Shown here: one piece after another, positions 157 to 35,078 of the stretch
Position numbering within the stretch: the stretch's first letter is position 1
Layout: each line of letters begins with the position of its first letter
Source of the DNA: Heterotrichella gracilis
Lineage: Eukaryota; Sar; Xanthophyceae; Tribonematales; Xanthonemataceae
Direction of reading: 5' to 3'
Assembly (NCBI GenBank): GCA_032358255.1
Contig: JAULBX010027650.1
Location: 1-35,252, forward strand
Length of the DNA stretch: 35,252 bases
Notes under the pieces: model-generated
Told to the model about the DNA's origin: nothing
The model's database searches: none
What the model saw: only the letters and a program-made list of their open reading frames with translations
Translations under genes and position numbers: made by a program

Positions 157-3100
157 CTGCACCGTCTCCTGCCTCTCTGCCTGGCGCGAGATGTTGTCCA
201 GGAAGAAAGCGATGGAGCGCTTGAGGGAGAGGGTGTCGCTGGTGGGGACGATGATCTGCACATGCGGAAAAGGTTTTTTTGACTGACTGGATCAATTACT
301 TGGGGCTGTTCTGTATATGGGTTTTACATAAAATTACTTGGTTGTCGGCACAATTCCTTTACATTAAATGGTGGTCGGCATGAGCGGCAAGAAGTTTGCA
401 TTCTAATCCACAAGACAACCCACCCAGCCACCAGCACCTCCACCACCACCCACCCTTCAGCTGAATAAGCGGCTTGCACACCAAGTCAGCATCCTTGCGG
501 TACCCCCCATAGAACACATCCATCACAACCACCCTCAACCCCACCCCCACCCCCACCATCACCCCCACCCCCACCACCACCCCACCACCACCACCGCCGC
601 CACCACCCGCCACCACCCGCAAAACCACCCACCTCCAGCTGAATGAGCGCCTTAAGAACCAAGTCCGCATCCTTGCGGTACACCCCGTAGAACACATCCA
701 GCAGGCGCTCGCGGATGCGAGGGACGATCTCCCCCATCATGCCAAAATCGTAGAAAATCAGGGCTCCTGGAACAAGAATTCAGGGTTTAGGGTTTGCTGG
801 CCTGAGTATCCGACCCTCATGACTTTACCTAGAGGATGTGCACTTTGACAACACCCCCAAATTAGTAGCATGTAGTGATGATATCAACTCACTAGTGCAT
901 GGCACAAAACCCCTTTGAGCAATTTTTTAACAGCTATAAACATTTATAAAAATATCGCACCATTTGCATCCACTGCGATGTTGCCTGGGTGGGGGTCTGC
1001 ATGGAAGAAGCCGTGCTTGAGAATTTGGATGAGGTATGCCTCGGTAGCCCGCCTGGCGATGAGGGAGGTATCCAGCCCACCCGCTGCAAGCTGAGCGGCG
1101 TTGGTCACCTGAGTAGGGGGAAGCAGTGTGGGAATTAAGAATGTGGGAGATTTTTCGAAACCCCACACTGTTTTTTTTATCATTATTATTATAGTTCATT
1201 ATTGTGCACTCCAAGATTGAGAGAGGATTGGATGAGGTATGCCTCGGTGGCCTGCCTGGCAACGAGGGAGGTGTTCAAGCCACCCGCTGCAAGCTGCGCA
1301 GCGTTGTCACCTGCAAAATCGGAGACGATGTGATAATTTTGAACCAATGCTTCCCAGGTCCCCGTTGGTTCTAGGGAGGTTACGCAAGTTGCAGAGGCGA
1401 TACAACAAGATGGGGTTGCACCCTAAATCCTGAACCCTACACCCTCAACTTCCACTTACGCAGGGTGATGCTACCACATGTGCGTACCTTGGTCCCAGGG
1501 AGGTATTCTAGTGTGAGCACCCTAGGGGAGGTATACTGCCAGTGCACCACTGGCGCCTTGACCCAATTCTCCCCCTTGAAGTTCCTCCGGAAGCGATCGG
1601 CGTTCCTCCCCTCCTGAATGTAGTCAATCTCCTGGTACAGGATGGTGGCGCATTCCTGGAGAATGACAAGGGACCCAGGGTTAGGGTTGATGGTTTAGGG
1701 TACAGGGTTTAAGGTATAGGGCCAATCTCCTGGTACAAGATGGTGGCGCATTCCTGGAGGATGGCAAAGGACCCAGAGTTTATGGTACATGGTTTAAGAT
1801 ATAGGGTTTAGGATAGAGGGTTAATCTTCTGGTACAAGATGGTGGCGCATTCCTGGAGGATGCAAAGGACCCAGCGTGAATTTGGCAACATGTGATTGGA
1901 GTCTGATGGATTGTAGAGGATCAATGATCTAGGGTATAGGATTTAGGGTGCAGGATCTAGGGTTAGTCTTGCAACACCAATGACACAGGTGATGTATGTC
2001 GCAACACAGGTGAAGGTGCTGTATGTGGGGTAACATGCACGGTGGATGAACACATATAATCGCAGTGTTGATCGTTAGAAATCAAAGTTTCATCGTTGAG
2101 GGTTGTACCGCGGTTTTAAGTGGAAGAAGATACGCTTCTTACCCCTGGCATGGAAAGTTTAGGGTTTACAATGCAGGGTTCAGGGTTTCATCGTCGACGG
2201 TTTTCCCAGGGCCTTACTTGGTAGATGCCCTTGAAATCGCGTGCCTCATCCCCTTTGTCCAGCTGTGCAGCCACCACCTTGAGCTGCTCCAGATCGATGT
2301 CAAAGAGCGCCTGGGCAGGATGGAGAAAGAATCCATTATTTAGTTTACTAACAGCAAGAATGGCACAGAGTGCAGGAGTGTGTAATGGGGAGAAATTGGG
2401 TGGGCATTTTGTCCCTTTGTGCAGCCACCACCTTGAGCTGCTCTAGGTCAAACAGCGCCTGTACAAGGAGGGTAAAATCCATTGTTTAGTTTTGCAAGGA
2501 GCAGGAATGGGGAGAAAATGCATAGGTGGGTGGTCCCCTTTGTTTGCATTTCACCACCTTGAGCTGCTCTAGGTCAATATCAAGCAGCGCCTGTGCAAGG
2601 GGGTGAAATCAATCGTTTGGGACCAACGAGTACAATGTGGAGGAGTGGAAATTGAAGGGTTTAGGGTTTATGGCTTACGAGCACAAAGTGCAAGTGGAGC
2701 AGTGTGTAATGGGGAGAAACCGCGTGCGTGCTAAACCTGCACCAATACTAGCGTGGCTGGAGCCCTCACCTTGAGCCCTGGGCGTTGCACCTTGACCACC
2801 ACTAGAGTGCCATCAAACAGGGTGGCGCGGTGCACCTGACCCAGGCTGGCGGCAGCGATGGGGCGCGGGTCAAATCGCTGGAACAGGCGGGGGATGGGCG
2901 CTCCCAGCTCGCTTTCTATGATGGCGATGGCTTTCTCGGATGAGAAGGCGGGGACCCGGTCCTGGTGGGTGGGGATTCGAGTTTAGGAATTAGGGTTCAG
3001 GGTATTTTAGGTGCGAGGTGGGCAAACCCAGCTTGCTCTCTATGATGGCGATTGCTTACTTTTGTGTGAAGGCGGGGACCCGATGCTTAGAAGGGGGGTA

Positions 3101-5039
3101 GTTGTCTTTAGGTGGGCGGTGGGTGGTAGTAGTGCTTAGTTGTGAAAGTGGTGTGCTGGTTGGGGGAGGTTTTGCAATTGCTGTAATAATCTGTGCATTG
3201 AATGGACTTGCAAGGGAACAGTCTAGGGTTTCAACATCTAGGGTTTACCTGTAGCTTGGATAGCTCCTCAACAAATTCCGCCGGGAACAGGTCCGATCGC
3301 GTGGAGAAAAGCTGGCCCAGTTTGATGAAGGTTGGGCCGAGGTCAAGGATTGACTCCCGAATGTAGATGGCCAGGCTGCGTGAGCGCGCCTTTTTCTTTT
3401 CTTCGGTCAACCCCCCTGGATAGCTCCATGGCTGGTCCTGTGGAATGGGAGAGGTTTTTCATTAGACATATTGTGTGTTTTACTCATATACGTTAACATA
3501 AATACACTGTGGTTTATAATGTACTGAAATATTCCAGTTCTTATACACTATTTTTGGATTAAATGGAGTTCACCTCACAGGCAAAGCCTGCATTTAACAA
3601 GATGACGAAGAGCAGGAATGTGGGTTTCGTGCCCAATTTAAAACTTGTTTTATTCCCACTTTTATCCCCCTCTTACCTGCAGGTACAGCCGAGTCCTGAG
3701 GGTGATAATGAACAACCAGATATCTGCTTGGCGCCTGGTCTTGGAGTAGCTATCCTGGGCCCAGCGGAAATTGGCATCCGTTGGCAGCGCATCTGCAAGG
3801 GGGGGAATGGGGGGAAGGGAGGGTAAGCGGGAGGAGTTTTTTAGCAGTGCATCTGCAAGGCAGGTGGGGGGGTGAAAGGGAGGGTAAGTGGAGGGGGAAG
3901 GGTGCAATAGAGTAGCAATACCGCTGGAGACGGGGAGGCATCTCCCCTGGTGCAAGGGGCAGCGAGACACAACATGGCAATGGCGTATGCTACTGACCGA
4001 TGACACGGAGGATCACATGGTGGATGCATATGGGCAGCGCATGTGGAGGGGGAGGATCACATGATAGATGCATGTGGGGAGGGGACACTCCCCGCCACCA
4101 TGTCCCCTAAACCAGACACAGCCTAAGTGCCTATGCCGTATACCCTAAACCCTCCACACCCACCTGCATCCACCACAAAATCGTCCGCATCGTCCGCCAG
4201 CAGCATCCCCCGCGCCATCACCAAATCCCCAGCGGCCGCTTGTATCAAGGGGAGCGGCCTGACTTTTTGGCGCATCACCACCAACCCACTCCCGCTGCTC
4301 CCCGCTGCGCTAGTCCCCCTGATCAAGGGGGGTCGCTGGGAGATGGATGAAGCAGGTGCCTCTCTTGTTGCTGACACACTGCTGCTTGGGCCCACATCTG
4401 TCCTGTTGCGCCCATTCTGCCCAGCCACCTGTGTGGTTTTTGAGTGGTCTTGAATGTGTGTTCCTCTGTGTTACTGAGTGCTCTTGAGTGTTTTTGTGTT
4501 TTTGTGCGTCGTACAAACTACTTCTTTCAAGCAGAGAAACACACTCAACAACGATTCACTTCATGCTATGCTGGCTGCTCACCCGGCTGCACTGCTGCAA
4601 AAAATAATAATTAAGTGCCCAACCCACCTGCGTTCGTGTGGCTGGTGGTGTGGCGCTGTGCCCCCCTGTGGCGGCTGTGGTGGCGCCCAGGGGCACCATG
4701 CGCACATTGCTAAACCCTAAACCCTCAACCCCGAACCAGTGCACCAGCGGCTGGGATAAGCGGTAAGGGCACTATGCGCACACCGCTAAACCCTAAACCC
4801 TAACCCTAACCAGAGCACGCTGGGATGAACATAACTAACCAACCCACCTGTGTTTGTGTGGTTGCTGGTGTGGCGCTGTGCCCCCCTGGCGGCTGTGGTG
4901 GCGCCCCGGGCAACGGTAGGGGCACCATGCGCACATCGCTGCTCAGTTTGGGGGCCTGCCTGGTGGCGGGGCGGGGGGGCGTCTGCACCGCATGCACCTG
5001 GAAGGAACGCCGTGCGCCGGCGCCAGCGCCGGCGCGCAT
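157..5039 (-). CDS. ABC1-family atypical protein kinase (plastid ABC1K), 3' end outside window
   Basis: Joined minus-strand exons, 5' to 3': 5039-4848, 4428-4164, 3792-3677, 3437-3249, 2961-2770, 2310-2218, 1655-1488, 1108-961, 766-633, 255-157. All borders are GT-AG and the frame stays open for 532 codons. The start at 5039 gives an Arg/Ala/Ser-rich N terminus like a chloroplast transit peptide; an earlier exon is possible. Diagnostic ABC1 motifs appear in order: KLGQLFSTRSD (KxGQ), AAASLGQVHRA (Ala-rich loop replacing the Gly loop), VVVKVQRPG (ATP-binding Lys), YQEIDY (ExD), HADPHPGN (catalytic loop) and DFG. ABC1 kinases of plastids act at plastoglobules or thylakoids in prenylquinone and stress metabolism. 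From memory the sequence is closest to the ABC1K8/OSA1-like group; the exact orthologue is not settled. The usual C-terminal ~200 residues lie beyond position 157 or are lost. Exons 1, 3, 5, 6, 7, 8 and 9 have partial copies in adjoining introns. Confidence 0.93.
445..523 (-). repeat. Partial copy of ABC1K exon 9 (3' part with donor)
   Basis: Matches 625-703 in the same orientation, about 180 bp away, in the intron downstream of exon 9. It carries the end of the exon and its donor region, with substitutions and one extra G at the exon end that would shift the frame. It is a degenerate duplicate, not a required exon. Confidence 0.85.
539..612. repeat. C-rich/G-rich simple repeat in ABC1K intron
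   Basis: A run of CCACCCCCACCCCCACC and CCACCACCACC units. On the transcribed minus-gene RNA it reads as many GGGGG and GGTGG tracts, enough for a G-quadruplex. It lies just downstream of the exon 9 donor (exon end 633). Confidence 0.9.
1226..1313 (-). repeat. Partial copy of ABC1K exon 8 (5' part with acceptor)
   Basis: Closely matches 1024-1113, including the CAG acceptor and the codons for the AAQLAAGG stretch. A missing base just after the acceptor breaks the frame, and the copy stops before the catalytic HADPHPGN codons. It lies upstream of the real exon in gene orientation. Confidence 0.88.
1723..1874 (-). repeat. Two partial copies of ABC1K exon 7 (5' part with acceptor)
   Basis: Copies at 1723-1774 and 1823-1874 repeat the start of exon 7 (acceptor end at 1655). 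They are separated by GGTTTAGGGT-like telomere-type sequence. Both end inside the exon near the ExD-motif codons, so neither could replace the exon. Confidence 0.88.
2411..2600 (-). repeat. Two partial copies of ABC1K exon 6 (5' part with acceptor)
   Basis: Copies at about 2411-2466 and 2552-2600 repeat the first half of exon 6 (2310-2218), including the acceptor and the codons for DLEQLKVVAA, with small deletions. Only the copy at 2218-2310 is complete and joins in frame on both sides. Confidence 0.87.
3024..3084 (-). repeat. Partial copy of ABC1K exon 5 start
   Basis: Degenerate copy of the first ~55 bases of exon 5 (2961-2770), lying upstream in gene orientation. It carries several substitutions and would not maintain the frame. 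Confidence 0.75.
3841..4070 (-). repeat. ABC1K exon 3 acceptor copy plus short direct repeats
   Basis: 3841-3860 repeats the acceptor and first bases of exon 3 (3777-3797). Between 4010 and 4070 there is a separate pair of direct repeats around GGATCACATG and GATGCAT. All lie in the intron between exons 2 and 3. Confidence 0.6.
4622..4787 (-). repeat. Partial copies of ABC1K exon 1
   Basis: 4622-4712 repeats the 3' half of exon 1 with its donor (GTGGGT). It stays open in the same phase as the real exon end, so it could splice to exon 2. A third, shorter fragment is at 4762-4787. Telomere-like CCCTAAA arrays (4709-4726 and 4786-4811) separate the copies. Confidence 0.85.
4709..4811. repeat. 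Interstitial telomere-like CCCTAAA arrays
   Basis: Two short runs of CTAAACCCTAAACCC, at 4709-4726 and 4786-4811. They flank a fragment of ABC1K exon 1 and lie inside the first intron. Confidence 0.85.
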
Positions 5040-6525: not shown

Positions 6526-9942
<3,417 letters not shown>

Positions 9943-11421: not shown

Positions 11422-11446
11422 CCCGCCCGAGCGAAGCGAGGGCGGG
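11422..11446. repeat. GC-rich hairpin
   Basis: Arms CCCGCCC and GGGCGGG flank an 11-base loop containing GCGAAGCG. The GAGCGAAGCGAG core resembles hairpin repeats common in some algal genomes, including organelle DNA; the origin here is not shown. Confidence 0.7.
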
Positions 11447-11641
11447 AGGCGGTGGGTTGCACTCAGCAAACAAGCACTCACCATATCACCGAAAGGAGGC
11501 AGGCGCAAGCAAAAGCCACACCAAAAAACAGAGTAAACACCCGCCCTTTGCAAACCCTGCCAAACCCTAATCCCAGCTTCAAACTTAGGTGACCTGCGCG
11601 CAGCTGCGTTGTGCTCCACAGCCGCTGCTGGCAGGGGGAAT

Positions 11642-11677
11642 CCCCGGACCCGAAGTCGGGGCTGCGGCGCCAGCCGC
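11642..11677. repeat. Two adjacent short hairpins
   Basis: Arms CCCCG/CGGGG (11642-11661) and GCGGC/GCCGC (11664-11677) follow each other directly. No downstream U-tract supports terminator function. Confidence 0.6.
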
Positions 11678-12088
11678 CCTCTAGTATTATGAGCCTTTTA
11701 AGCCATTAAAATTAGCAAGAAGTTGCAATTCAGGAAATTCCAACAGTCAATCAGGTTCAATCAGTCTGGCAATCACACCTGAAAAAACAGCATTGCTGCC
11801 TGTTAGTGGCCCTGTCGGATCATCATATAAGGGCATACCCAATGGCTATCATATACAACTTTAAAAAAATAAAAACTCAACAATAATACATACAACAATT
11901 AATAAATGTATGTATGCAAACAATAATACATGCAAAAATCTGAAGCGTTTTCAACCACACCACCAATTACTAACTTCAAGTGGCCTTGTCGACAGTACCG
12001 TTTCACATGTATAGGTGGCAACTTAAAAAAATGCGGGACCCAATCACACTGCCAGATAATGATGCAGGCTGAGATGTACAAGTAGTAT

Positions 12089-15000
12089 TTAACCATACAC
12101 CGTGACCTGTGTTGAGTAGGTGCTTGGTGCGTCCGTGACTGAAGAACCAAAGCGACTCGTGACCTTTTGCACATTGTACATGTTTGCAGTCACAGTAAGG
12201 TTGTAATCACCCCTGCCAATGCCCACAGCAAAACCCGGCACGTCAATGGTCACCACCAACGCATTTGTCGCTGGGGGCCAGCCAGGGGTGTAATTTGGCA
12301 CCGTTGCGTTGAAATCCAGGGGCAACGCGGCGGGGCAGGCGGCGCCGGCGCTCAGCGCGTTGCAGGATATCGTCACGGGCCTACGCATGAGGCCGTCGTC
12401 GGGGTTCACCACCGGGGAAACGTCCCAAGCGAGGGCCATGGTGGCGGAGACGCGCACAGTGCCGCTGTTGGCATCAAGCATGGAGGCGCCGGTGATGGCC
12501 AAATAGACGAGGCCGGTGGGGTCGGCTGTGGGGTCAAAGCAGTAGCTTGAGTCGTCAAAGGGGTTGCAGGCTGGGTTGTATGAGGGGCTCCTGTAGTCTG
12601 CGTCAGCGCGGTAGCATCGACTGGTTGTATCCAGGTAATCCTGCCACTTGCAGCGGGTCCCCGGGAAAGTGGAGGCTGCGAAAAGGGGAACATTGCAAGG
12701 TTGGAAACCAAGCCACTGTGCAGGTGATTACCGATGGGTTGCAATATGGTTATCATATGTCATGGCATGTACTATGTGTTCCACGGTTACCACTTGAATT
12801 GCATGCAATCTATGCAATCAGGAACAATGATGCGGCCACCACATGTGCCCCAATGGCATGTGCAATCACGCTGCGCTCATTTTTGCAGGTATGGAGTTGC
12901 ATGGGCCCCGCTATGCCACACCACCCATAAACAGTGGCATGGGTGATACGCTGGTGCCTTTGGTGCACTTACATCGACACTTGCTTGAGTATGAGCACTC
13001 CCGGCAGTTGCAGCTCTCTCCACGTGAGCAAGTGTTGTCGCCGCACACGGAATCTGCGCAACACACGCGGCCGTACCGTTATGTGTGGGCAATGGCATGC
13101 AAACATTACCCTGGTATGTTGTCCCTGACGTGGTTGCAACTTCCAGATCATTACTTTACAAAATTATCGTATGTACCATTTGGGGAAATTACTCTGATAC
13201 CTTGCCCCTGATGTGCTTGCAAACTCTTGATCATCAGCAGTTTACAAAAATAATCATACCATTTGGGGAAATTACTCTGATACCTTGCCCCTGATGTGCT
13301 TGCAAACTCCTGACCATCAGTAGTTTACAATTTCAAATCATGAACCTTAGGAGAGGATGGAGGGAAGCAGTGTTGCCTACCTTTGCAGATGAGGGAGGGC
13401 ATTGGAGGGTCATTTCAGGAGAGGGGAACAAAAGGTTGAGGACGTAGGGTTTTGGGAGTCAACACAGGGGTTTTAAGTCAGCTACCTGCGCAGGTGAGGG
13501 TGAGGTTGTAGGGCACATACTGCCCAGTGCTCGGGGCCCTCATTGTTGCCTGGATGATCACTGGGCCTGGTTGGGTGCAGAATCCGCTCATAGCGTATGT
13601 ATACTGGTATGTTTTCAGTGAAGATGGAGTTTTGTCCGAAGACTGGCTCCAGGTGAAGGAGTCCCAGGAAAATCCACCCGACTTCACCTACGGAAGGCAA
13701 ACAAATGGTATGATGGTTTGAAGTAAGAAAGTGAGTGCAATGGCATGTACTTGGTTGTTGCTGTACCCTGCTCAGCTAGATCCTCTTCCTTATCCAACGC
13801 GCTTGTTCAAGGACAGGCTGCGTAGCTATTTATTTAATATTTTTGGTTGTTGCTTATGCATGTAAAGTATCCCGAGGATGCAACAATCTCAAGATCCCCA
13901 AGGTAATGGCCATGGAAATAAGTGAAAGGCCATGAATTATGCGAATTGCAGTTCATAATCCGTACCATTTTAGCATGCATGGTACCTAGCAACTCTATTA
14001 AGCCCGTACAAATGAACAGGGACATACAAAAACTTGACTGCCTCCGGTAGCACCTTTCCAAGGGCCCGTACAATCAAATTACATTTGGTCTGTGCTTGTG
14101 CCCAAAACGCACAGTCATATCAACTGTTGTGAAGCAAAGTCAACATATTGTAATCAACACTAAAATGTAAGCATTCATACACATGTCACAGTGAATTAGT
14201 TACGCCTTCTCAGAAGTCTCGCCTTAGGCAAATAGGGTTGAACCGCAGGTTGATTAGGATTTACTAAGGGTTCACTTCATATTGCATGACACACATACCT
14301 CGAAGGTGACATTTGAACAATGTGAGCATTTAAAAAATGTAAGCATTTAAAGATATTCACATACCTCGAAGGTGACATCCGTGTTAGGCGACGATGACCC
14401 AAAGGGCGATCCACCTCCGCCACAGTCAGTCTGCCAGTTGCTGCCAAATTGCAGGGCTGGGTAGATGAAGTAGCGCATCATGGGCTTAGGCACATTGATA
14501 CCGCTGAGGTAGGCCACGGTTCCGGGTCCGTTGGGGCCTGTGGATGGGGAGGGTGTGTGGTGTGTGGGTGGTGCGTCCGGTGATGGGTGGATCTAGCATA
14601 CGGATCAACTCCTGGTGCAGGCGTGTGGGATTAGCTACACGCATTGAGCGGGCAGGGGGAGGAACACATACATCAGATTTTTGGGGAGGGAGCCGCAGCA
14701 CACCCACGAGGACTAGAATGCGACTATTTCATCCTATTCTAGTTCCCGTAGCACACCCAGCAAACACAGCCACCTGGCAAGTTGTAGCACACCCAATACA
14801 GCTGCAATGTGATCACACGTGGCTGGTTGTACACACACATGTCGATTTGTTGCCTATCAATACGAAAGCGGTATAGCCAGCCATTTTACCTCACACGTCG
14901 GATGGACCAAATTTGGTCCCTGGCTTTGTGCCCTGACGCAAAAAACACACAAAGACACACAATACAGGAACGGGCCCCTGCCACCCCGACTGCTGGGCTG

Positions 15001-18000: not shown

Positions 18001-21000
18001 CAAATGGGTTTTTAGGTATTGGAGTGTCCCCCACCCACCTTGAACGCCACCCAGGTGTCATGTTTCTGGCCGTTGCAGTCAGTGGCAGTGGCCTTGAGGT
18101 TGAAGGGTATCTCGTTGTACCCTACCAGTAGGGTTTGGTCTGGGAGGTCGAGGGCGGCTGGCGCAGCGGCAAGAGCAGTGGCTGCATAGGCGGGGGAGGG
18201 GTGGGGAGGGGGTTTGAATTCAAGGGGTGCTGGGAACAATACCCTTCCCATACATGTCAGGCATGCCAAACCAACGAATCCCCTTCTGCAGTCCAAGCTC
18301 AGAATTACCACACATGGGAAGGCGCGATTGCAATGGTAAGGGGTGCTCGGCTGGTGATAAAACCCTAACAAGGGTTTTTGCACACTGCCAGTGGCACCGT
18401 ATGCACCACATGTATGCACCACGTGTGTGCACCACGGTATGCAGGGTTGTTGCACCCAACACTGGCCACCAAGGGAGGGTTGTATAGGCATGAAGGGGTA
18501 GGAGGGGTCCACTCGCCCATGTACGCTTCAAACACGGCTGTTCTGCACATTCTGCATGTAGGGTTTTAGACATCTACAGCTCTTAAATTGGGGCTTTGCG
18601 CTGCTTCAACTACACTATTCTGCATACTCTGCATGTAGGGTTTCACACATCTACGGCTTTGCAGCAGGGCTTTGCAGCGTTTAAAAGCGGGGCGTTCACT
18701 CACCAGGCACTGTGTAAAAGTAGGTCGACTTGCCCTCGACTTTGTTTCCATTCCAGGTGGCCACGGGGTTGAAAATGTATGTGGAACCCGACACCAGGTT
18801 GCCGACCTTGACAATGTATGTGTTGACATATCGTGTGAGGGCAATTGGCCAGGTGGCAAGGACAGTGGGATCTTCTGTAGGGACGCCACCTGGCGGGTTG
18901 CTGCCAGCATGCACCTCGATTGCCCACTGCACAACCAAAAAATTCAATTGAAGAGAGTTGTGTTGTGAATTTGGTTGGAATTTCAATGTTTTAATTTGTT
19001 GCTAAATCCTGGCAGTCATGGTGATCACCGTTTCTACCGACCATTCTGTCATAAACTGGAATGATAATACGCGGATACTACATGGTGTGCCTATAGCAGG
19101 CGATGCCAGACCTTTGATGCAATGATCCGTGCAAACGTCTGGTGTGTTGGGGTTTGGCAGCTCATCAGCCATGCATCCCATCCCATGTCAAATATACAAA
19201 TAGATAAATAGGTAAATATCGTCCATAATATGGATGATATGGATATCGTCCATAATATGGACTCCAATATCATATATCACCGGTGTTTTCGTGCTGTGCC
19301 ACTCACCGTAGGCCCTGGGTTGGCCCCCCAGGGCGGGCGAATGGCCAAGAATGATTGGGACTCCCAATCAATGTTGATTGTCACCGAGATCTGTGCTGTG
19401 GTGTCTGATTGAAGGGGGTCGAACACGTAGTAGTTGATTTTGGCCGCCGAAGCGGCGTCTGCGGGACATTGGAGTGGAGTAAGTGGAACTACATGAACGG
19501 ATGGATTGACACACAGCGCTTGGTGCAAGGGAATGAACCGTACTAAATGTATAACCGTACGCAATTGTTGACTGGAACCCTCAGATTGTGACATATTTCA
19601 GGTTGTGACAAATTTTGCAGGTTTGCCCCACACACTGTCCTCCAGGGCAGGCTACTATTATTCCTATTATTTTTACTATTATTATTTTAAGTTTGGTTTT
19701 TGGTGCGCTCCTCCGCAACTCACAAAACCCACAGGGCCTCACCTATGCAATTGATGTACATGACACCACTGTGTGCTGGGGAACCATTTGGAACTGCTAC
19801 GCTGGCCGTGTAGTCCCCCTGCCCGGGCTGATTGCATCTCCAACTCCCGGGATTTTCTGGCCACCCCAGCGTTGCCAATCCCTTGGAGTTTGTTTTGACG
19901 GTGAGAGTGGAACCTACTGGGACGTTGAGCAGTCCGGCGGGGCGGTTGGCAATGTCTCGCGTGAAAATCTCCCTCTCATACTGCACCCAGTGACGTTGTT
20001 TCATGATTGTATAACGCACAAATGTCTACTTGTGGTGATGCAAGCAATGAAGAATGGATATATATTGGGTGGATTATAAACATTCTGGTTCGTTTGGAAG
20101 GAAAGCGCTAGCGGACGGTGAAAATGCATGGCAAGGAAGGAGGAGAATGACCGCAAATTAATGCTTTCTTTCCGCCAAATGGATTGCAAGAGATCAGCAG
20201 GTAGTGCCCCTCCCCTCCTCGGGGCATCAAGGCTTCACCTTCAACATCATAGGGTTTAGGGTCATACTTAGAAGCCTGTCCCACCTTGAATGTCACCGCA
20301 ACGTTGGCCTCCGGCTTCCAGTTGCACCCATCGCACGTCATCACACTCACGTTGGCCTTCCACTCTACACCACTCCCACCATAAAACCCGATGAACGACC
20401 CTATTGCTCCCATGAAGGTAGGCTCGGTATAGTGCCCTGAGCAGGTGCAAACCACCGGAGGGGGCACGTAGTGGTCGCACAACGTGAAGGTGCTGCCCAC
20501 ACGGGTGAGGTCAAGGCTGCATTGCTGGCCGTCGCCCGTGAGGGACCCGTCGTCACAGTAGCTGCCGCAATCGGCAAAATCCTTGGGGCAGCGGGCCCAG
20601 CACTTGGCGAAGAAGATGTCGGGTGCCCTAGAGAGGCAAGTTGCACAGTTATACTTTAAGCTGCATGTGTTAATTATTTCATAATTGTATTTTAAATTAT
20701 TTTATTTTAAGTATTATATATTTTAAGGAGGCTTAGTTGCACAGTTGTTTTTAGGGATGTACAACGCATGTCCACATGCAGCTTACGGCATGTACATGTG
20801 CACATGGAAGGCATGTGGATACGTGGTATTGAAAATGATTGCTCGAGTCAACCGCACCAATCGGGACACTTTCCATAGCACACGGCGGCTTCATTGTTCA
20901 TGCCGGGGGGGCAGTCCTTGCCACCTGCGCACGCAATGAGACACACCATGAGTACCATGAGCCATCATTCATGGTAACTCAGCCGGTAGACGGATGTTGA

Positions 21001-27000: not shown

Positions 27001-30000
27001 TCAGGTTTGAAAGTAAAACAGGACAAAATACAGGGTGGATCTAGACAGCGCGAGCGCTTTTGAGTACTACTAGTTCAGTGCATCCTAACCTAGGTCTGCC
27101 ACCAGGTAATTGTAACCTAGCCTAGCATTGCCCCAGGTTGCCGCACATGCGATACATGCGACCCTTGCTGTTGTTGTCACCCTTCTATTTGTTTCTTGAT
27201 GCCACATTGTGCCAAATCTCCCCCCAACTGCACCTGCGGGCTGGACACCACTAGCGCATCTGCATCCGCTGACCAGTCAAACCCCAGTCCCGAGGCCATC
27301 CCTGGGAGCGTGGTTGATCCATCCAGGGATACAGCCAGGTACAGCAGTCCCCGGGGGGAGTCCATGGCAGCAGCCAGGGCAAGACCTGAGGAGTGCACTG
27401 CCGACACGCGGTATACGCCTGCGGGGATCGGGAGTGGGGATTGAAGATTGAGTATTGGGATACTATTTTTGGTGTAGGGTGGTGCAAACCTGCTACAGGC
27501 CTGAGGAGTGCAGTGCTGACATACGGTATATGCATGCGGGGGATTGGGGATTGGGATTTGGGAATTGGGGATCAGGGCTTTTGGTGTAGAGGTATACAAA
27601 TCTGCAGCAGCATGGGAGACAGGGTCAGCCAGAGCATTGGGTTACGGTGCAAAGGTACAAGCCCAACGCAACATTTCCTCGTATATAATCAAATTCCTGG
27701 TAGTAGGTGCCATGTCTTCCACCACCTTGTATAATACAGCCAGTCCTTACCATCCTATCTGCTTGATGTAAAACTGATTTTCCTCTTGTGACGCAGCTAG
27801 CCCTACCTGCTTGATTGCTTCACTTGGCACAATTGCAATGCTCACTCCCCCCCCCCCTTCGCACCTTGCAAATCCGACTTGAGCGAGATGGCCGGGAAGC
27901 CCAGCCCCGCCACCGCATCGGGCACATACGCCGGTGCCGAGGGCCACAGCACCTTCACCGCCTGATCCAAAACCACGTTGGATGCACTCATATCCACCAG
28001 GTATTTTGGCGACTCCGCTGCCTGCTGGGCCTTAGTTGTGAAAGTCAGCTCGGTATCCATGTCGATGGTTTGGGCAAAGAGGGCGTCGAAGGAGGCGCCT
28101 CCGCCGGAGGAGTATGTGCCGGATCGCAGGGTGAGCAGGGTGGGGATGATGGTGACATTGCCAGCCACCTACGGGAGGGTTTGTGTGTGTGTGGGAGGGG
28201 GTGATTGTTTTTAGAATTCGGATTCGAAACAAATGCTACCTTGATTAAGATTTTGTATTTATCCACAAATTCATAATTCGTTTTTTCTTCGAATATATTG
28301 AATGATCCAATTCAGAACATTTTGGGAGGGGGCGCGAGGTTGTTGTTGGTGTGTCAGGGCAAGAGGCGATGTGGGGCTGCACCTCCAACTTTAAGGGCCA
28401 AACCCTCAACCCTGAAACAATACCCTGAAGACATGCCATTGCGTACAAGACAGCTTGCTGCGCGTGCACCCCTCGCCCTAACCAGGGGTTTATTACCTAT
28501 ATAAACCAGTAAAATTAGTATACCCCTGCCCTACCACCCTCATTCCCCTGAAAAGCCCAACCCCTCACATGACCCCTCACATGACCCCTCATACCCCTCA
28601 CCAGCACGTCCAGCTGCGACAGCTTGCCCCCATCCCCCTTGGCCAGCGCAAATGCCACCAGCACATCATTGGCATCCAGTGCTGCTATGGTGACCAGGGC
28701 GCGCAGGTACACGCCAGGCAGGTAGGCGGTGCCGTTGACAACAACGCCGGCTGTGGCTGTGGAAAGGGGAAATCAGGTTTAGAATTCAAGGGATACAAGG
28801 AAAAAAACTCTTATTGAAAAAGAGAAGTTGGTTTGTCCGGGTCTCGATTGCCTCCAGGGCTGCTATGGTGACCAGGGCGCGCAGGTACACGCCAGGCAGG
28901 TAGTGGTGCCATAAACAACAACGCCTGCTGTGGCTGTGGGGGAGGAGGGTGGGGGTAAGAGGACAAATACATGAGTTTTCAAGCACATTGATGCATAAGC
29001 TCATGACTATCTTTGCAGCTTGCCTTTAAGCAGGTATGTTGATCTATGGAGTGCATTTAAATTTGAAATGGCCTTGCCTTCATGTTCATAGTGTGCGTCA
29101 GGATACCGGTACAAGAGGTGAGCAAATGCCATTCCATTTGCTGGAATGGAATATTCATAATGAGAATAACCACAAGTAGAGTCTGCAACTGCTGTGAGTT
29201 ACTGCCATGCGAACTGTACATCAAAACAATGATGGTCCACTATTAGAGATTTATCTTCATCCCACTTATTATTGCACGCCCCATCCCTTACCATTCTCGG
29301 CTACATAGATTATAAAGTGCCTCAGCAAAGCGGTACGAGGAGGTGAGCAAACTTCTTTAAAAATAGCCACAAGTAGAGTCTGCAACTGCCGTGAATTACT
29401 GGCATGCAAATTGTGCATCGAAACAATGATGGTCCACTCTTTAAAGATTTGCATTCATCTCACCCACCATTCTGGGCCACATAGATCACTGAGATTTGCC
29501 GCAGGCTGATTGCGTCGCCCCCGCTGGCCCAGTCATACCCGAAATCACTGGCCAGTGTGGACATTGACAGGGTCCCGGGCCAGTCCAGGGTGAGGAATAT
29601 CACCCCTTGTGCCTTGGATAGCTGTACTTGAATGGAGTTGCCGCTGGATTGCACTGCTACCAGTGTGTACACGGCTGCCCCAATGATAAAGGATAAATCA
29701 AAACTCACATAAAGAAGAAGCAAGTATGTTCAATGATTGGATTGGGTGAGTGTGCCCTAACAGGTCCAACTTCACATTTGGCAGCCCAGGGACACATTTG
29801 TGCTTTTGTGATTAAACTGTGATTTTCATATGGTTTCTTCGTGCTCTCATTGCAATTATGTTGCATATGACATTATTGCAATTACACTGCGATTTTGATT
29901 ACATTGTGAATTTGATCAATTTGATGTGGTTTCATCATGTGCCGTGGTCTCATCATGCAATTAAAGACAATTGTTGAGGCGCACCTTGCAGGTCCGACTT

Positions 30001-33000
30001 TATGCTGAGCAGCGGGAAGTTGACTGCCTGTAGCGAGTCCAACACTGCTTGGGGCGCACCCGGCCACAGTGTGTGGAGGGCAGTGGAGAATTCAACATTG
30101 GTTGCAATCATGTCAACCAGGAACTTGGGTGCGCCATCGGCGATCTGCTTGGCGGGGCAAGTGCGTGAGGTTGTGTACAAAATAATATAAACTTATAAGA
30201 ATTATTAATTAAACTTATTCAAAATATAACAAAATCCATATTATGCATGCGCGACCAATGACCACGCAGTCTGTCCACAATGGTTGTAATGTTGCATCCG
30301 CCACGTTGAAAGCATGGTGCGGAGGACGCCGATGTACATGTGCAAATCAGATGAAGAGCGCACTTGCAAGTGATATGCACACACGAACAACTTACCATAT
30401 AGGAACATCGAACCATGCATATAGATCATGGCCATCACCTGTTGCGGGGTGGTGTAGGCAAGGGTGCATGCCAGGTTGATGGTCCCCGCCAGAGTGGCGT
30501 TGAATAACGCTCCCCCCTTGGAGGAGTAGGCACCGCCGTGCAGGAGCAGGATCCCGGGGATGAGCGAGATGTCGCCTTGAACCTGAACAAAACGAAATTA
30601 CAGAAGATATGAAGACGTCTGGATTATCTAGCACCCTCTTATCAAGGGTAATAAGATAATAATAGTCCTATTATTATCTTATTACCCTTGCTCTTACTCC
30701 CCACCCAACCAGCAGCCCCACCCACTTACCGCCACATCTGCCGTGGAGTTGACCGTTGCATTCCCCTTGAGCAGTGCCAGGGACAATGTCACATTGGGGG
30801 CGTCCAGCTCTATTATGGCCCCCTGGGCATTGAAGTACAAGCCAGGGGCGTAGTGGGTGCCCTCAAAATCATACCCGTCGGTGGCTGCAGGGGTGGGGAA
30901 AATTTATAACAAATAAATATATACGCAGCCTGCCCGGGCCAAGGGATAGCACAGAACATGTCATTGGGAAGAAGTGATCAGGCTTGTAATATAAACCCCA
31001 ATCTAACCATGCTTGTAATGTAGACCTCAGTCTAATCAGGCTTGTCATACAAACCCCAATCTAACTGCGAATTTTTAGACTGTTCGAACCAGGCTTCTCA
31101 CATACACCATCCCTTTGAGACGTGGGTGTTTATTCCAGTGCAACATTGGCCGACACACCCACCAACAGTCTGTTCCATTACCATTGCCATTACCATGTTG
31201 TTAAAACCATTCCCATCTTTCACATCTACGCACCATTAGCCGATACATACACCAGCAGCATATTCTGCACCGTCACTCCATTACCAGGTCCAGTCCAATC
31301 CACCCCCCATTTGCAGCCAGCGATGCCGGGAACTTTACGGTTCAGGGTTTAGGGTAAACCTTGGATGATGCAGAAGACGCTATAGAATAGCACACCCCAA
31401 ACCCTATGTCACGCACCATTAGCTGACACATACACCAGCAGCATGTTCTGCACCGTCACCCCGCTACCAGGTCCCGTCCAATCCACCCCCAACTGCGCAG
31501 CCACTGATCCCAGGGATAGAGGTCCCTCGAGGTGGAAGGCAATGAGGTACAGCTGGCGAGCCACCAGCACCATGCGGATGGAGACCCCGCCATGGGCTGC
31601 TGCCAGGTCAAAGTTGCCTGCGGATGGCGGAAAATATTAATGGAGTGGGCGTAAATGTATCCCTTGCCAAAAGTGGCCTTGAAAATGCTGGTACATGGCA
31701 CTTTATCATGGGACCAAGGGGAATATCATTCTATAATCAGCAGGCAATGAGGTACAGCTTGCGAGCCACCAAATCCATGCGGATGGAGACGCCGCCATAG
31801 GCGGTTGCTAGGTCAAAGTTGTCTGCAGATGGCGGATAATATCAATGGAGTGGGTGTAAATGTATCCCTTGCCAGAACCTGGACCTTGAAAATGGTGGTT
31901 GGCACTCTGTGCGCTTCAGCATACATCAGCATGGCAGTTCATCATGGGACCAAGGGGCATATTATCCAGCAGGGAGTGTAAAAGCCAGCTACTAATGCAT
32001 AAATCAGAAAATGGCTTTATTCGATACAGTGTGTGTGTGTGTGGTGGGTGGGGGGGGGGAGGGGAGGAGAGGTCTCCATGGCAGTGGGTGTGGTGGCACC
32101 TCTGATGAAGTGCTAGTGGTGTTGCTGATGGTGATGATCAGGCAGTAATTAATTCAATTGATGACAAGAATGAAATTGCCGATATGCGGACATGGTGGCT
32201 TACATGGCACCCTTCCCATGGGAGCTTCGCCTTATAAGAGGATGTCTTTGCACTCACGCCAAGCAAGCAACAAGAAGCCCTAGCATCCATCCCGGCATGG
32301 GATGTCTCTCATGTCTAGCCCTACCTGGTATGATTGAGGACACGTCTAGCGAGGGGAAGGTGATCGCCCCCAGCTTGTCGCTTACCAGCTGAGGCACCTC
32401 CTGCCATATGGCCTGCACGCCCTGCAACACGGGCACAACAGGCAGCATAAATAAATTGAATATTTCATACTACAGGATTTTTTCTCTCTAGGAATTTACC
32501 GGAATTTTTGAAGCAGTCATACTATATAAAAAGAAGTTCAAATTAATTTTAATACTGAATGATGTATGTAAGCATATGCTCCAAACCCCGGAGCGATTTA
32601 GCGGCATTAGACTAGCGCTTGCAAGTGTTGAAATCGATTGGTGCACGCCGCCTCCAGCGAATGTGCATACCACATGCCAGTCCTGACCTCCAATATGCAC
32701 AACAGCATGAGCAAATCCCGGGGCAGGCTTGATCCCAATGATGCAAAAACATCTTGTAGAAGCTGCAGAGTCATGCAATCCCTGTGCCTACTTGTATTAG
32801 GGTTTAGGGTTTCATGAAGGACATAGTAGCATTATATTCCCCACCTGGGCCAGGTTCACCGCCGATGCCGCAAAATGGAAGGAGTAATCGTACCCCCCGC
32901 CTGCTTTGGGCACCAAGTTGATGTTGGCAAGCGCCGAGAAGCTGCCCGCAAAGTCCATCGAGCCCATACCCAGCAGCCCCCCGCCAGATGCGTCAAATTT

Positions 33001-35078
33001 GAAATCTGAGAGGGACATGAGGGAGGGGACCAGGGGGAAGGTGGTGGGGAACTGCGGGGGCAGAGGGGAGGGCAAGGGGGTGGGCGAGAATTGCAGTGGG
33101 TTTGTGAATAGGGGGCTGCGAATATTCTGTATTTTACATAAGTACCATGTAAACATCAAGCAGAAACCCACCTTGAATTTCACCCCCGAGGCGCTCAAAA
33201 TGTTGACCTGCGCGGGGTAGTTCGCCAGGTTCAAGGCGGGGATTGTGACCTTGATCCCCAAGGTGAGTGAGGGGGCGGGGTGGGAGACACCCTCCCAGGT
33301 GAAGCTGGCCTGATCGGCCTTCTTGGGCACGAATTCAATGAAGGGGTTGGACACCTGCGTCGGGTAACGGGGACAGAATAAAAGGTCTTATTCATTGACA
33401 TCCTTCATTGTGAATTCATGCAGTTCCCAAATATGATCATATTTTCCGTACGCATGCAGCCTTCTTGGGCACACATTCGATGAAGGGGTTGGACACCTGC
33501 GTCGGGTGAGGGCGAGGGGTGGTTAAGAGGAGCTGGGCAGAAAAGATGGCTGAGCAGCAATTCAGTTGGCCCATAACCAATGCACCACGCGCAACCCTAC
33601 TTGTACTGGAGGCGATCTCACGAGTCAGATGTCCTTTTCGGTTTGGTTGGCCACGTGGTTGATCGATTGGGTGATCATGTGACTAATGACGTGGGTGATG
33701 AGACAGCTGATGAGGTGACAGATCAATTGAGATAATTTGAATGCTCAACTGGAATCTGCAGGCGGCGTAGATGTCCAACCAAAACTCTACACGTGTCCAA
33801 TCAAAATCCTACACCCTACACTCAACACAGCTACCTGCACCACATCAGCAGCCAGACACGGCGGTCCAAAATTAACCCGAAGGCGTGAACCCCATACCCT
33901 AAACCCTAAACCCTAAACCCTTACCTGCACCACGTCAGCCGGCAGAGCGGAGGGCCAATCAAACCCCAAACCCTAAACCCTTACCTGCACCACATCCGCC
34001 GGCAGTGCGGACGGCCAATCGAACCCCACCCCCGCCGCCACATCCGGCAGCGTCACGCTCCTCCCCATCTCCACCCGCGCCAGCCTCAGCCCCACCCCCT
34101 GCCCCTGCACCACCACCAGGGCAGATCCGGCCCCCAGGGCTGCGGCCAGGGGGGCTGAGAGAGGGAATGGAACGGGGATGTCGTCCACAATTGCAGCCTG
34201 GATGGATTGGACCAGGCCCAGCATGTCTCCCGAGGAAAGGGTGAGGGAGGCGAAGGAATCCGCGCGGTTGATCGACACGCGCGCAAGCAGGTCGGTGGAA
34301 GTGGGTAGCGTGGTCTGCACGGCGGGGTGTAGGGTGTGAGGTGTAGGGTTTGTAGGGTTTGTGCCCTTCACAAGTAGGGTGTGAGATGTAGGGTGTAAGG
34401 TGTAGGGTTTGTGTCCTTCACAACTAGGGTCTGAGGTGTAGGGTTTGTGTCCTTCACAATTAGGGTGTGAGGTGTAGGGTTTGTGTCCTTCACAACTAGG
34501 GTGTGAGGTATAGGGTTCGTGCACTTCACAAATAGAGTGTGAGGTGTAGGGTTTGTGTCCTTCACAACTAGGGTGTGAGGTGTAGGGGTATGTGTCCTTC
34601 ACAACTAGGGTGTGAGGTGTAGAGTGTGAGGTGGACGTTTTTTGTCCTTCACAAGTCGCACATACGATCACAGTCACATCATATGGTACCACCACAAGCG
34701 ATGCTACACAACAGCTTGCACCCCACCACCACATCTGAACCCCATTGAAAACCCGAGCGCTTCCATGAACGCCTCCTCCACCATCACAAACCCTACCAAT
34801 ACCCTCAAACCCCTCACTGCCACCGCACTCCCCAACACTGCCCTGTAGGCTTTACTACCCCTCGCTATAAGCCCCTCACCAGCACCAAAAACCCTGGCAG
34901 GGTCACTTTGAAGCAGCTGGTCAGCTGCTGCAGGGCATCGGTGATCCCGCTTGACACCAGCCCCACACCCACACTGCCATCCGAGGTCCTGTACCCCACA
35001 TCAACCACCACGGGGTCTGAGGCAGCTGTGATGTTGGCGAGGGAGGAGGAGGTGCAGGTCTGGAGGCCGGAGAAGAAC
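12089..35078 (-). CDS. Giant modular, probably secreted or cell-surface protein of unknown family (5' end outside window)
   Basis: Forty minus-strand exons join in one frame to 2,548 residues and a TAA stop (12089-12091). Exons: 35078-34880, 34314-33985, 33354-33172, 33051-32845, 32421-32325, 31617-31417, 30884-30730, 30582-30439, 30144-29985, 29674-29468, 28756-28602, 28168-27865, 27418-27234, 26872-26690, 26153-26060, 25752-25545, 25307-25112, 24753-24648, 24283-24166, 23846-23705, 23191-22937, 22597-22552, 22161-21926, 21732-21588, 21417-21265, 21181-21114, 20916-20858, 20627-20285, 19980-19743, 19458-19307, 18926-18704, 18181-18039, 17792-17549, 17207-17020, 16646-16475, 16218-16032, 15512-15253, 14537-14365, 13687-13486, 12675-12089. 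Introns after exons 22 and 23 need GC donors (GCAAGT). Order of parts: tandem ~220-residue modules, a divergent stretch, a Cys-rich cassette, then small beta-rich domains. Many Asn-X-Ser/Thr sites and paired cysteines suggest an extracellular protein; there is no membrane segment at the C terminus. Function unknown. Confidence 0.85.
13174..13339. repeat. 83-bp tandem duplication in intron
   Basis: Two nearly identical 83-bp units beginning TACCATTTGGGGAAATTAC at 13174 and 13257, in the intron between the last two exons of the giant gene. No coding role is visible. Confidence 0.9.
14297..14314 (-). repeat. Short copy of exon 38 end
   Basis: An 18-base copy of the last bases of exon 38 plus its donor (real exon end at 14365). 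An imperfect direct repeat containing AAGCATTTAAA lies between the two copies. Confidence 0.7.
15549..15660. repeat. Imperfect tandem duplication in intron
   Basis: Two related units around GGTGGACT...GGACCT...TGTCAA, just upstream (gene sense) of exon 37. Non-coding. Confidence 0.6.
18541..18680. repeat. Imperfect tandem duplication in intron
   Basis: Two units sharing TTCTGCA..CTCTGCATGTAGGG and ACATCTAC, in the intron between exons 31 and 32. Confidence 0.65.
19207..19262. repeat. AT-rich near-palindromic repeat
   Basis: The sequence ATCGTCCATAATATGGA occurs twice, and each TCCATAATATGGA is itself palindromic. It lies in the intron between exons 30 and 31. Confidence 0.75.
20285..21417 (-). 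other. Cysteine-rich cassette of the giant protein
   Basis: Exons 25-28 encode about 207 residues with about 21 cysteines, including CGNCANGG, GICWNCGSGWDF, DCPPGMNNEAAVC, KCWARCPKDF and CDGCNW. Exon 27 must use the second of two AGs (start 20916); the first, 8 bases upstream, meets an in-frame stop. The cassette resembles extracellular disulfide-rich repeats of algae and protists and links the large modules to the C-terminal domain chain. Confidence 0.75.
23332..23437. repeat. Short imperfect tandem repeat in intron
   Basis: Three units of TAAGGGTTTACT(A/G)G with AACCCT(A/C)GA, containing telomere-like GGGTTTA words, in the intron between exons 20 and 21. Confidence 0.75.
24010..24150. repeat. 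Two neighbouring short duplications in intron
   Basis: GCAAGATGC(C/G)TA(T/C)GATCAATAGGA is repeated at about 24010 and 24051. AGGGGCTG(T/C)CTGACCCT is repeated at about 24096 and 24126. Both pairs are downstream (gene sense) of exon 19. Confidence 0.75.
25545..27418 (-). other. Giant protein module R3 (exons 13-16)
   Basis: About 223 residues. It starts with GVYRVSAVHSSG and the GLGFDWSADAD box, then has GPGVYVSTTISMP, and ends with STLWPDTPGVVLDFL, matching the order of landmarks in R1 and R2. It is the most divergent copy: the YSS-GG segment is shortened, and its last intron is phase 2 instead of phase 1. Confidence 0.75.
27483..27545 (-). repeat. Partial copy of giant-gene exon 13 start
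   Basis: Repeats the acceptor and start of exon 13 (27378-27430), upstream in gene orientation, with substitutions. Further AGGCCTGAGGAGTGCA-type similarity supports duplication. Confidence 0.8.
28560..28601. repeat. ACCCCTCACATG tandem repeat at exon 11 donor
   Basis: Three to four units of (G)ACCCCTCACAT directly downstream of the exon 11 donor; the last unit contributes the donor GTGAGGGG itself. Confidence 0.8.
28850..28940 (-). repeat. Partial copy of giant-gene exon 11 start
   Basis: About 90 bases closely matching 28671-28760, including acceptor side and the codons for YLRALVTIAAL. A short deletion disrupts the frame. It lies upstream of the real exon in gene orientation. Confidence 0.88.
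29100..29475 (-). repeat. Intron-exon segmental duplication at exon 10 end
   Basis: About 29100-29315 and 29335-29490 share GAGGTGAGCAAA, CCACAAGTAGAGTCTGCAAC, AACAATGATGGTCCACT and the exon end around CACATAGAT. The copy with the complete exon end and GTGGGT donor is the one nearer exon 10 (29468). Confidence 0.85.
30643..30690. repeat. Perfect 23-bp inverted repeat with 2-bp spacer
   Basis: Arms 30643-30665 and 30668-30690 are exact reverse complements around TC. The arm begins CAAGGGTAATAAGATAATAA. It lies in the 147-bp intron between exons 7 and 8 and would form a strong hairpin in DNA or pre-mRNA. Confidence 0.97.
30985..31075. repeat. Three ~40-bp imperfect tandem units
   Basis: Units of (C/A)ATGCTTGTAAT / CAGGCTTGT followed by AAACCCCAATCTAA, in the intron between exons 6 and 7. 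Confidence 0.75.
31143..31330 (-). repeat. Partial copies of giant-gene exon 6 end
   Basis: 31223-31330 repeats the last ~100 bases of exon 6 with its donor region (real: 31409-31515). 31143-31185 is a more degenerate third fragment. Both lie downstream of the exon in gene orientation. Confidence 0.87.
31743..31874 (-). repeat. Partial copy of giant-gene exon 6 start
   Basis: About 130 bases matching 31539-31672 with period ~203, including intron flank, TCTGCAG acceptor and the codons for FDLA..YGGVSIRM. Exon 6 thus has partial copies on both sides. Confidence 0.9.
32027..32071. repeat. GT microsatellite followed by G tract
   Basis: (GT)n then GGTGGGTGGGGGGGGGGAGGGG in the intron between exons 5 and 6. 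Possibly length-variable. Confidence 0.9.
33459..33508 (-). repeat. Partial copy of giant-gene exon 3 start
   Basis: About 47 bases matching 33318-33364, including the acceptor CGCAG and the codons for VSNPFIE, in the upstream intron. Confidence 0.88.
33831..33981 (-). repeat. Two partial copies of giant-gene exon 2 end with telomere-like joints
   Basis: 33831-33874 and 33920-33962 repeat the last ~40 bases of exon 2 with its donor (real: 33981-34027). CCCTAAA arrays sit at 33893-33921 and 33961-33981, exactly between successive copies. Confidence 0.92.
34334..34657. repeat. 36-bp minisatellite, about 8 units, in first visible intron of giant gene
   Basis: Unit about TGTGAGGTGTAGGGTTTG followed by TGTCCTTCACAACTAGGG, period 36 with small variants. 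Each unit contains a telomere-like TAGGGTTT word. As the period is a multiple of three, the minus-strand frame stays open and continues into exon 2. The acceptor at 34315-34316 nevertheless gives a clean exon. Confidence 0.95.

Follow-up and report, generated by a model that had tools for sequence, protein, structure and literature searches.

Direct duplications of exon edges and telomere-like filler in the introns of Heterotrichella gracilis

Genes of the window and samples used

The window analyzed here is one whole contig (C513; accession no. JAULBX010027650.1; 35,252 nucleotides [nt]) of the draft assembly (G000) of the xanthophycean alga Heterotrichella gracilis, which comprises 68.5 Mb in 903 contigs. 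It carries three genes whose introns hold partial copies of the edges of neighboring exons in the same orientation, with sequence resembling the telomeric repeat (TTTAGGG)n frequently lying between the copies. Gene 1 (minus strand, modelled exons 157-5039) codes for an ABC1 atypical kinase (PF03109, E = 1.6e-81) and gene 2 (plus strand, 6526-9942) for an NAD(P)-binding protein (NAD_binding_10, PF13460, E = 3.2e-35), as identified with Pfam; the exons of both are models backed by homology. Gene 3 (minus strand, about 13.5-35 kb) has no match to Pfam among the pieces scanned. Its exons come from a small home-made gene finder, whose small weak exons the model omits, and from two borders placed by eye, namely, an extension of exon 27234-27421 (about 2 nt off the AG) and the addition of exon 29469-29676. 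The gene finder overlaps 52 of 54 chaperonin exon cores placed with Pfam, which is not an independent test because the cores of 8 of the 11 chaperonin genes concerned were part of its codon training.

Outside the window, we used 20 other 10-kb stretches (200 kb, from other contigs) and a set of chaperonin genes. Matches to PF00118 are present on 14 contigs, and genes were taken from 11 of these, with repeats ignored in the choice; we excluded C180 and C409, whose matches are nearly unbroken, and C263, which has a single match. Chaperonin junctions were taken from predicted exons with either an overlapping Pfam core or a score of at least 12, and sample introns are gaps between adjacent predicted exons on one strand, some of which may not be introns. 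The three window genes and the 11 chaperonin genes constitute the 14 modelled genes that underlie the main junction tests, the comparison of introns with and without duplications, the decoy-site scores, and the branch-point count. Loci L001 to L005 and L026 to L030 do not enter the counts.

Two sampled loci, L013 (C145) and L016 (C205), are contigs dense in open reading frames (ORFs) and AT rich. L013 bears bacterial-type genes, such as those for a biotin synthase and a DapB-like protein (names assigned by eye), so the assembly is not pure and includes at least one bacterial contig. Both loci were set aside as bacterial, L013 by its genes and L016 only by composition and ORF density, in the filler, tract, spacing, splice-motif, and predicted-exon tests. 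They are included in the 200-kb count of direct and inverted pairs, to which neither contributes a pair.

Duplications are direct, local, and recurrent

Comparison of the window with itself by BLAST revealed 36 repeat pairs, of which 35 are direct; the single inverted pair consists of the two contig ends. Among the direct pairs, 34 are spaced 58-423 bp apart, and the remaining one is a telomere-type match over 29 kb. The 20 other stretches yielded 84 direct pairs and 1 inverted pair at an E value of 1e-4 or better, which makes the phenomenon genome-wide. The duplications are thus direct almost without exception, as the initial annotation of this contig had proposed, together with the claim that at least 15 exons have such partial copies in the adjacent intron. 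By our count, there are 16, with 7 in gene 1, 3 in gene 2, and 6 in gene 3 (Table 1).

The pattern is best seen in gene 2, where two of the three exons with copies have them at both ends and where the complete copies, when spliced, give an open frame, in agreement with the earlier statement that one complete copy keeps frame. At exon 8176-8288, the upstream decoy starts at the acceptor and the downstream decoy ends just beyond the donor, and telomere-like filler (8144-8171 and 8295-8345) separates both from the true copy.

The presence of direct pairs in the window and in sampled stretches of other contigs, as well as in 8 of the 11 chaperonin genes, likewise upholds the annotation's view of a local and recurrent process that is not tied to one kind of gene. 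Its spread is uneven. Among the 18 nonbacterial stretches, six have no pair and two have one. The chaperonin loci L031, L032, and L037, the 3 of 11 without direct pairs, have few telomere-like tracts (0 to 0.37% of bases), and the introns of L032 are short; the process therefore differs between genes. Three families in the sample are coding tandem repeats within one predicted exon (L019 at 9455 and L020 at 6007 and 7191).

The distance from copy to copy is bimodal. Two Gaussians, centered at 99 bp (standard deviation [SD], 21) and 187 bp (SD, 20), fit the 92 of 95 families spaced less than 260 bp apart better than one by 24 units of the Bayesian information criterion (BIC), and the distribution falls after 210 bp. 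Median aligned units in the two modes are 63 and 89 bp. A hidden middle copy in the widely spaced class was considered and rejected, with some similarity seen in 7 of 27 fillers. At a guess, both modes lie at the scale of the nucleosome.

The copies are often separated by telomere-like filler

The sequence between the copies, a feature absent from the initial annotation, is commonly nonhomologous to its surroundings and rich in telomere-like repeats. We found the exact fivefold TTTAGGG array 50 times in forward and 51 times in reverse orientation genome-wide and never the same pattern read backward. In seven contigs (C70, C140, C526, C609, C717, C770, and C824), a CCCTAAA array oriented like a left telomere lies no more than 10 nt from the contig start, and TTTAGGG is therefore the telomere repeat of this genome. 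Many other arrays are internal, and in the sequence set analyzed, the telomere-like class makes up 1.37% of bases, whereas the median for the 20 heptamer classes of equal composition is 0.15%.

This sequence is concentrated between the copies. Over the 95 families, its share is 9.5% between copies, 2.4% in the left flank, and 0.95% in the right flank; a second comparison gave 9.0% in filler versus 0.91% elsewhere. AT-rich or nondescript filler is also common. With telomere-like tracts masked, 62 of 203 are flanked by a direct duplication, compared with 9.0% of 603 random sites, and none of the 203 is flanked by an inverted one; the other 141 tracts have no flanking duplication at that score. 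Tract-rich regions are richer in duplications (Spearman correlation of 0.77 over 30 pieces), and 24 of 32 introns with duplications contain tracts versus 27 of 74 others (Fisher P = 0.0003).

Most of the young fillers resemble neither flank. In the 26 families with at least 88% identity, filler of at least 15 nt is present in 22, of which 16 are unlike both flanks; among the remainder, 1 resembles the left flank and 6 the right, with one counted in both. Most young events are hence of the form unit-filler-unit rather than eroded tandems. The filler at 1112-1227, the one searched genome-wide, was found only at its own place, and we accordingly reject a mobile element as its source.

Duplicated units are enriched at exon-intron junctions

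The initial annotation stated that each copy carries a splice junction and proposed a shuffled control. When families are slid randomly within their own gene in 2,000 shuffles, the association with borders stands. In the 14 genes, 30 of 40 families contain or touch a junction, compared with 19.6 expected (SD, 2.8); the observed number was reached in 0 of 2,000 shuffles. The claim for every copy is nevertheless overstated, since the bias is about 1.5-fold and 8 of the 40 families are purely noncoding (14.7 expected). The window holds 23 of the families, and 16 of these include or abut a junction (genes 1 and 2, 11 of 12; gene 3, 5 of 11). The bias is also present in young families, at 13 of 16 versus 7.7 expected for identities of at least 88% (4/2,000) and 9 of 12 versus 5.4 for at least 90% (36/2,000). 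Differential decay of exon copies alone is therefore insufficient to explain it. A first test on the sample with predicted exons had found junction-spanning units in 22 of 51 families, against 13.2 expected (SD, 3.0; maximum of 23 in 1,000 shuffles). When the 29 misses were read by eye, many had splice consensus overlooked by the finder, a subjective reading that was not used as a count; those without it include L017 at 3396, L020 at 1625, L022 at 3879, and L024 at 3850, and the three coding tandem repeats are also among the misses.

The 33 junction-touching units provide further detail. At donors, the true copy precedes the decoy in 16 of 17 units, and at acceptors, it follows the decoy in 16 of 16, the order required if the decoy lies in the intron. 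Decoys keep the GT or AG in 28 of the 33, so the earlier inference that decoy splice sites are made holds, at median site scores below those of the true sites (4.8 versus 6.7 for donors and 5.35 versus 6.6 for acceptors). The exon part is longer than the intron part in 24 of the 33 (P = 0.013), and the intron part is 6 nt or less in 12, compared with 3.2 expected. By our reasoning, the distance from filler to true junction is that of the intron-side break.

Telomere-like tracts crowd at splice sites

Across 229 curated or predicted introns, the nearest splice site is no more than 50 nt away for 81 of 179 telomere-like tracts, versus 46.7 expected (SD, 5.6; 0/2,000). The predicted introns of the sample alone give 44 of 93 tracts against 23.0, and 19 control heptamer classes pooled give 258 of 841 against 214.0. 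Both the copies and the tracts are thus enriched at exon borders.

The strands differ in placement. G-strand tracts number 28 near donors and 3 near acceptors, and C-strand tracts number 19 and 31, respectively. A run-based count over 229 sites of each kind found 14 outward and 13 inward runs at donors and 16 outward and 0 inward runs at acceptors, with 2 of each in 189 mid-intron windows. The lack of an orientation bias at donors fits insertion without polarity. Upstream of acceptors, 31 of 101 copies of CCCTAA lie at a distance of 20-49 nt, in the branch-point zone, and none of 34 copies of TTTAGGG lies within 80 nt, i.e., this strand is excluded there. We take TTTAGGG to be readable as a 3' splice site (TTTAG followed by G) and hence as a cryptic acceptor, and purifying selection against such sites is the simplest reading of its absence. 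CCCTAA, for its part, includes CTAA, which resembles the core of a branch point. A branch-point motif is present in 8 of 16 true acceptor copies, compared with 25 of all 97 introns and 14 of 97 windows placed mid-intron, and it falls within the filler in 5 of 7 short cases, counts that are too few to lean on.

Several donors enter TTTAGGG repeats in register, as at 33965-33984 (minus strand) and in L035, L036, and L007 (e.g., GTAAGGGTTTAGGG and GTGGGTTTAGGG). They look as if the G run of the donor had primed telomere addition.

A proposed repair origin and its alternatives

On the basis of these observations, we consider it somewhat more probable than all other explanations together that the copies are scars of an error-prone repair of staggered breaks, which duplicates tens of base pairs and adds filler that is often telomeric, with splicing acting as a filter on what survives. 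Breaks with overhangs of some tens of nucleotides would be followed by fill-in of both overhangs, possibly of the CST-Pol alpha type, and by rejoining of the ends with extra filler, giving unit-filler-unit in one orientation. The filler would often be the genome's own (TTTAGGG)n, supplied by telomerase or by captured telomeric DNA. A duplication that crosses a junction could then be tolerated because the filler and the truncated copy would be removed with the intron, and events inside exons would mostly be lost. At acceptors, where the complete exon copy follows the filler, CCCTAA filler could provide a new branch point. Such repair is favored because a single step yields direct duplications with foreign DNA between them.

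Several results weigh against this proposal. Telomere-like sequence is above background inside the units as well (5.4% and 4.5%), and an 11-mer telomere match lies between the copies in only 29 of 95 families (a looser 10-mer criterion finds a match in 43 of 85 fillers). Plain tandems, with less than 15 nt of filler or with overlap, account for 28 of the 95 families, namely, 4 of the 26 with at least 88% identity and 24 of the 69 less similar ones. Requiring the junction to lie at least 5 nt inside the unit leaves a weak excess of 22 of 40 versus 17.0 expected (104/2,000); an earlier coding of this strict test gave 17.7 expected (175/2,000), and by its parts (9 of 12 versus 6.6 in genes 1 and 2, 5 of 11 versus 4.0 in gene 3, and 8 of 17 versus 7.2 in the chaperonins), none is convincing alone. 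A splice-motif test free of gene models also gave a weak excess (of 95 families, 9 with P < 0.05, 21 with P < 0.1, and 34 above 0.5), and it is too blunt because random gene segments score high too. Introns without detectable duplication show crowding of tracts at splice sites as well (36 of 81 versus 23.9 expected; 6/2,000). Finally, extension of both ends by telomerase should place G tracts closer to the left copy and C tracts closer to the right one; this polarity is absent within the fillers (0.44 and 0.46, P = 0.81), and the two fillers that hold both strands, with G before C, are too few to use. Capture of telomeric pieces is therefore at least as likely as extension by telomerase.

Uniform breakage with loss of exon-internal events predicts filler spread evenly along introns, and the crowding at borders thus needs another cause, either preferred breakage or repair near (fragile) borders or retention of useful filler. 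A stronger version, which we entertain only tentatively, is that repair coupled to the addition or capture of telomeric sequence prefers exon borders, that the planted repeats become branch points and donor-side G runs and so drive intron growth, and that the 99- and 187-bp spacings are a chromatin-scale ruler. In this version, telomere sequence would be recycled into splicing signals.

The best-surviving alternative, which we regard as unlikely, is plain random tandem duplication under selection, with the tracts incidental. Events in exons would be purged, and intron-internal events would decay unseen as both of their copies drift, leaving junction events visible because their exon copy is constrained. 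The modest size of the junction enrichment agrees with this, as do the absence, among the families listed for the 14 modelled genes, of any whose two copies share one exon and the occurrence of duplications far from predicted exons, where they make up 4.1% of bases versus 10.5% in introns. Young families are, however, equally enriched at junctions, the filler is about tenfold richer in telomere-like sequence, and the tracts, which are detectable without exon constraint, crowd at splice sites too. The intron-side breakpoint is also closer to the junction than expected.

Less probable still is an order of events in which the telomere-like repeats came first as splicing signals (the CCCTAA branch point and G runs after donors) and their G-rich strand stalled replication, with template switching and local duplication as the result. 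The position bias of tracts in introns without detectable duplication speaks for it, as does the inclusion of the tract in the repeated unit of some families. A tract duplicated with its unit should, however, also flank one copy, whereas the telomere-like share of either flank is far below that between the copies; moreover, the near-equal orientations at donors fit insertion better than a donor-side signal.

That the copies are decoy or alternative exon ends in regulated splicing, and thus the raw material for alternative exons that the initial annotation saw in them, we judge highly improbable. Most decoys do keep their GT or AG, but the copies are partial, their site scores are lower on median, and they are also found in housekeeping chaperonin genes. 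An artefact of short-read errors duplicating read-length pieces, which the fragmented draft with its admixed bacterial contig and the spacing modes near 100 and 190 bp might recall, hardly deserves credence, as misassembly should give near-identical copies and those seen are mostly 70-98% identical, with indels, around nonhomologous filler.

Relation to known systems and significance

In mammals, interstitial telomeric sequences are described as inserted at double-strand breaks, in some cases together with random added bases and, where the break was staggered, a direct duplication of the target (PMC2246262, PMC7215372). The introns studied here likewise have internal tracts of the genome's own telomere repeat with break-type changes in the flanks. 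In those reports, simple duplications are rare in mammals (6 of 130 rodent, 4 of 25 primate, and 3 of 66 horse loci), and the location of human intronic tracts is regarded as compatible with a random distribution (PMC2246262, PMC7215372). In the present genome, by contrast, direct duplications enclose 62 of 203 tracts, and the tracts crowd at splice sites with a strand bias. CST-guided Pol alpha-primase, acting at the 3' overhangs of staggered breaks, is reported to generate small direct tandem duplications, and the same complex carries out fill-in of the telomeric C strand (PMC8355091). The units described above are similarly direct, local, and overhang sized. They differ in being evolutionary events, enriched at borders, and accompanied by telomeric filler, of which the available portion of that account makes no mention.

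In the potato RdRp gene, a tandem genomic duplication across an intron-exon boundary is reported to have passed on splicing signals and created a new intron (PMC4974935). The duplications studied here are also local and cross such boundaries; unlike that single intron-making case, they are many, contain filler, and lengthen existing introns with no clear gain. We considered and rejected intron gain by duplication, as a direct repeat across the intron ends with a score of at least 28 is present in 2 of 229 introns, versus 0.2 in shuffled ones, and none reaches 40; the top case falls within duplicated sequence, and its gene model may be incorrect. Gained introns flanked by short direct repeats, which have been attributed to staggered-break repair, resemble the present cases in having an insert between repeats, and differ in that the repeats described above consist of exon edges and lie within introns that already existed. 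Introner elements, which recurrently reshape algal introns, form families of similar copies. The duplications share this recurrent reshaping, but the one filler searched occurs only at its own place. Among the matches listed in a search that covered titles and the starts of abstracts and left most subscription papers outside, we found no report of telomere-type filler in exon-edge duplications or of border-placed intronic telomere tracts, which is weak evidence of absence.

If the repair origin is correct, it links break repair, telomere sequence, and intron evolution, which are usually studied apart. The many unit-filler-unit events of differing age make intron lengthening directly testable, as are the tolerance of splice-site choice for near-perfect decoys a hundred bases away and the possible turning of telomere repeats into branch points. 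The decoys also sound a warning for gene prediction in such genomes, as they retain splice consensus.

Other features of the window

Table 1. Exon-edge duplications in the window, with a noncoding counterexample
Feature	Positions	Strand	Details
Gene 1, donor of exon 633-766	424-703	-	True unit 603-703; decoy 424-525; filler 526-602, CCACCC rich
Gene 1, acceptor of exon 961-1108	1025-1313	-	True unit 1025-1111; decoy 1228-1313; filler 1112-1227
Gene 1, acceptor of exon 1488-1655	1625-1877	-	True unit and two decoys (from 1723 and 1822); telomere-like repeats between
Gene 1, acceptor of exon 2218-2310	2254-2618	-	Two upstream decoys, about 2408-2487 and 2552-2618
Gene 1, acceptor of exon 2770-2961	2895-3082	-	Decoy 3019-3082; telomere-like filler 2959-3018; aligned block stops 3 nt before junction
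Gene 1, acceptor of exon 3677-3792	3781-3891	-	Decoy 3841-3891
Gene 1, donor of exon 4848-5039	4619-4940	-	Decoy 4619-4711; telomere-like repeats between copies (CCCTAAA on plus strand)
Gene 2, acceptor of exon 7277-7384	7133-7342	+	Decoy 7133-7229; telomere-like filler 7230-7243; true unit 7244-7342 (93% identical)
Gene 2, exon 8176-8288, both ends	8102-8391	+	Acceptor decoy 8102-8143 (95%); donor decoy 8346-8391 (96%)
Gene 2, exon 9267-9400	8831-9535	+	Acceptor decoys 8831, about 8952, and 9071; donor decoy 9478-9535; telomere-like filler 9418-9477
Gene 3, acceptor of predicted exon 27234 to about 27420	27382-27605	-	Decoy 27497-27605; upper border by eye
Gene 3, acceptor of predicted exon 28602-28756	28672-28939	-	Decoy 28850-28939 (91%)
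Gene 3, near donor of by-eye exon 29469-29676	29165-29463	-	Copy 29165-29265; aligned block stops about 5 nt before junction
Gene 3, predicted exon 31436-31617, both ends	31228-31906	-	Donor decoy 31228-31330; acceptor decoy 31742-31906
Gene 3, acceptor of predicted exon 33172-33354	33317-33515	-	Decoy 33459-33515
Gene 3, donor of predicted exon 33985-34314	33811-34020	-	Decoys 33901-33960 and 33811-33870; telomere-like tract continues from true donor
Gene 3, noncoding direct duplication (counterexample)	13105-13330		Others: 14292-14378, 18525-18675, 30977-31065

Beyond the aligned block at 29165-29463, there is weaker similarity by eye, and the gene finder did not predict the adjoining exon. 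A 36-bp tandem array with a TAGGG core (34330-34654), in the intron next to predicted exon 33985-34314, looks like a telomere-derived minisatellite. Gene 3 as a whole (about 13500-35100) encodes a very long protein with, by eye, apparent repeated segments, GTYSSGGGASFDA and GGAYSSKGGALFNA.

The contig ends (1-75 and 35176-35247) carry a short dispersed repeat in inverted orientation (94% identical), of which 40 matches were scored at 97-100% identity out of 689 candidates genome-wide and which starts at least five other contigs. This repeat is probably the end of a young mobile element at which the assembly broke off. In the window, CpG is depleted (observed/expected ratio of 0.43-0.70) and TGCA is overrepresented 1.8- to 4.2-fold, ranges that include the nonbacterial loci, i.e., those other than L013 and L016, where the use of both is similar; the idea of two eukaryotes mixed in the assembly was rejected. 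The depletion and the excess suggest DNA methylation and an unexplained preference for TGCA.

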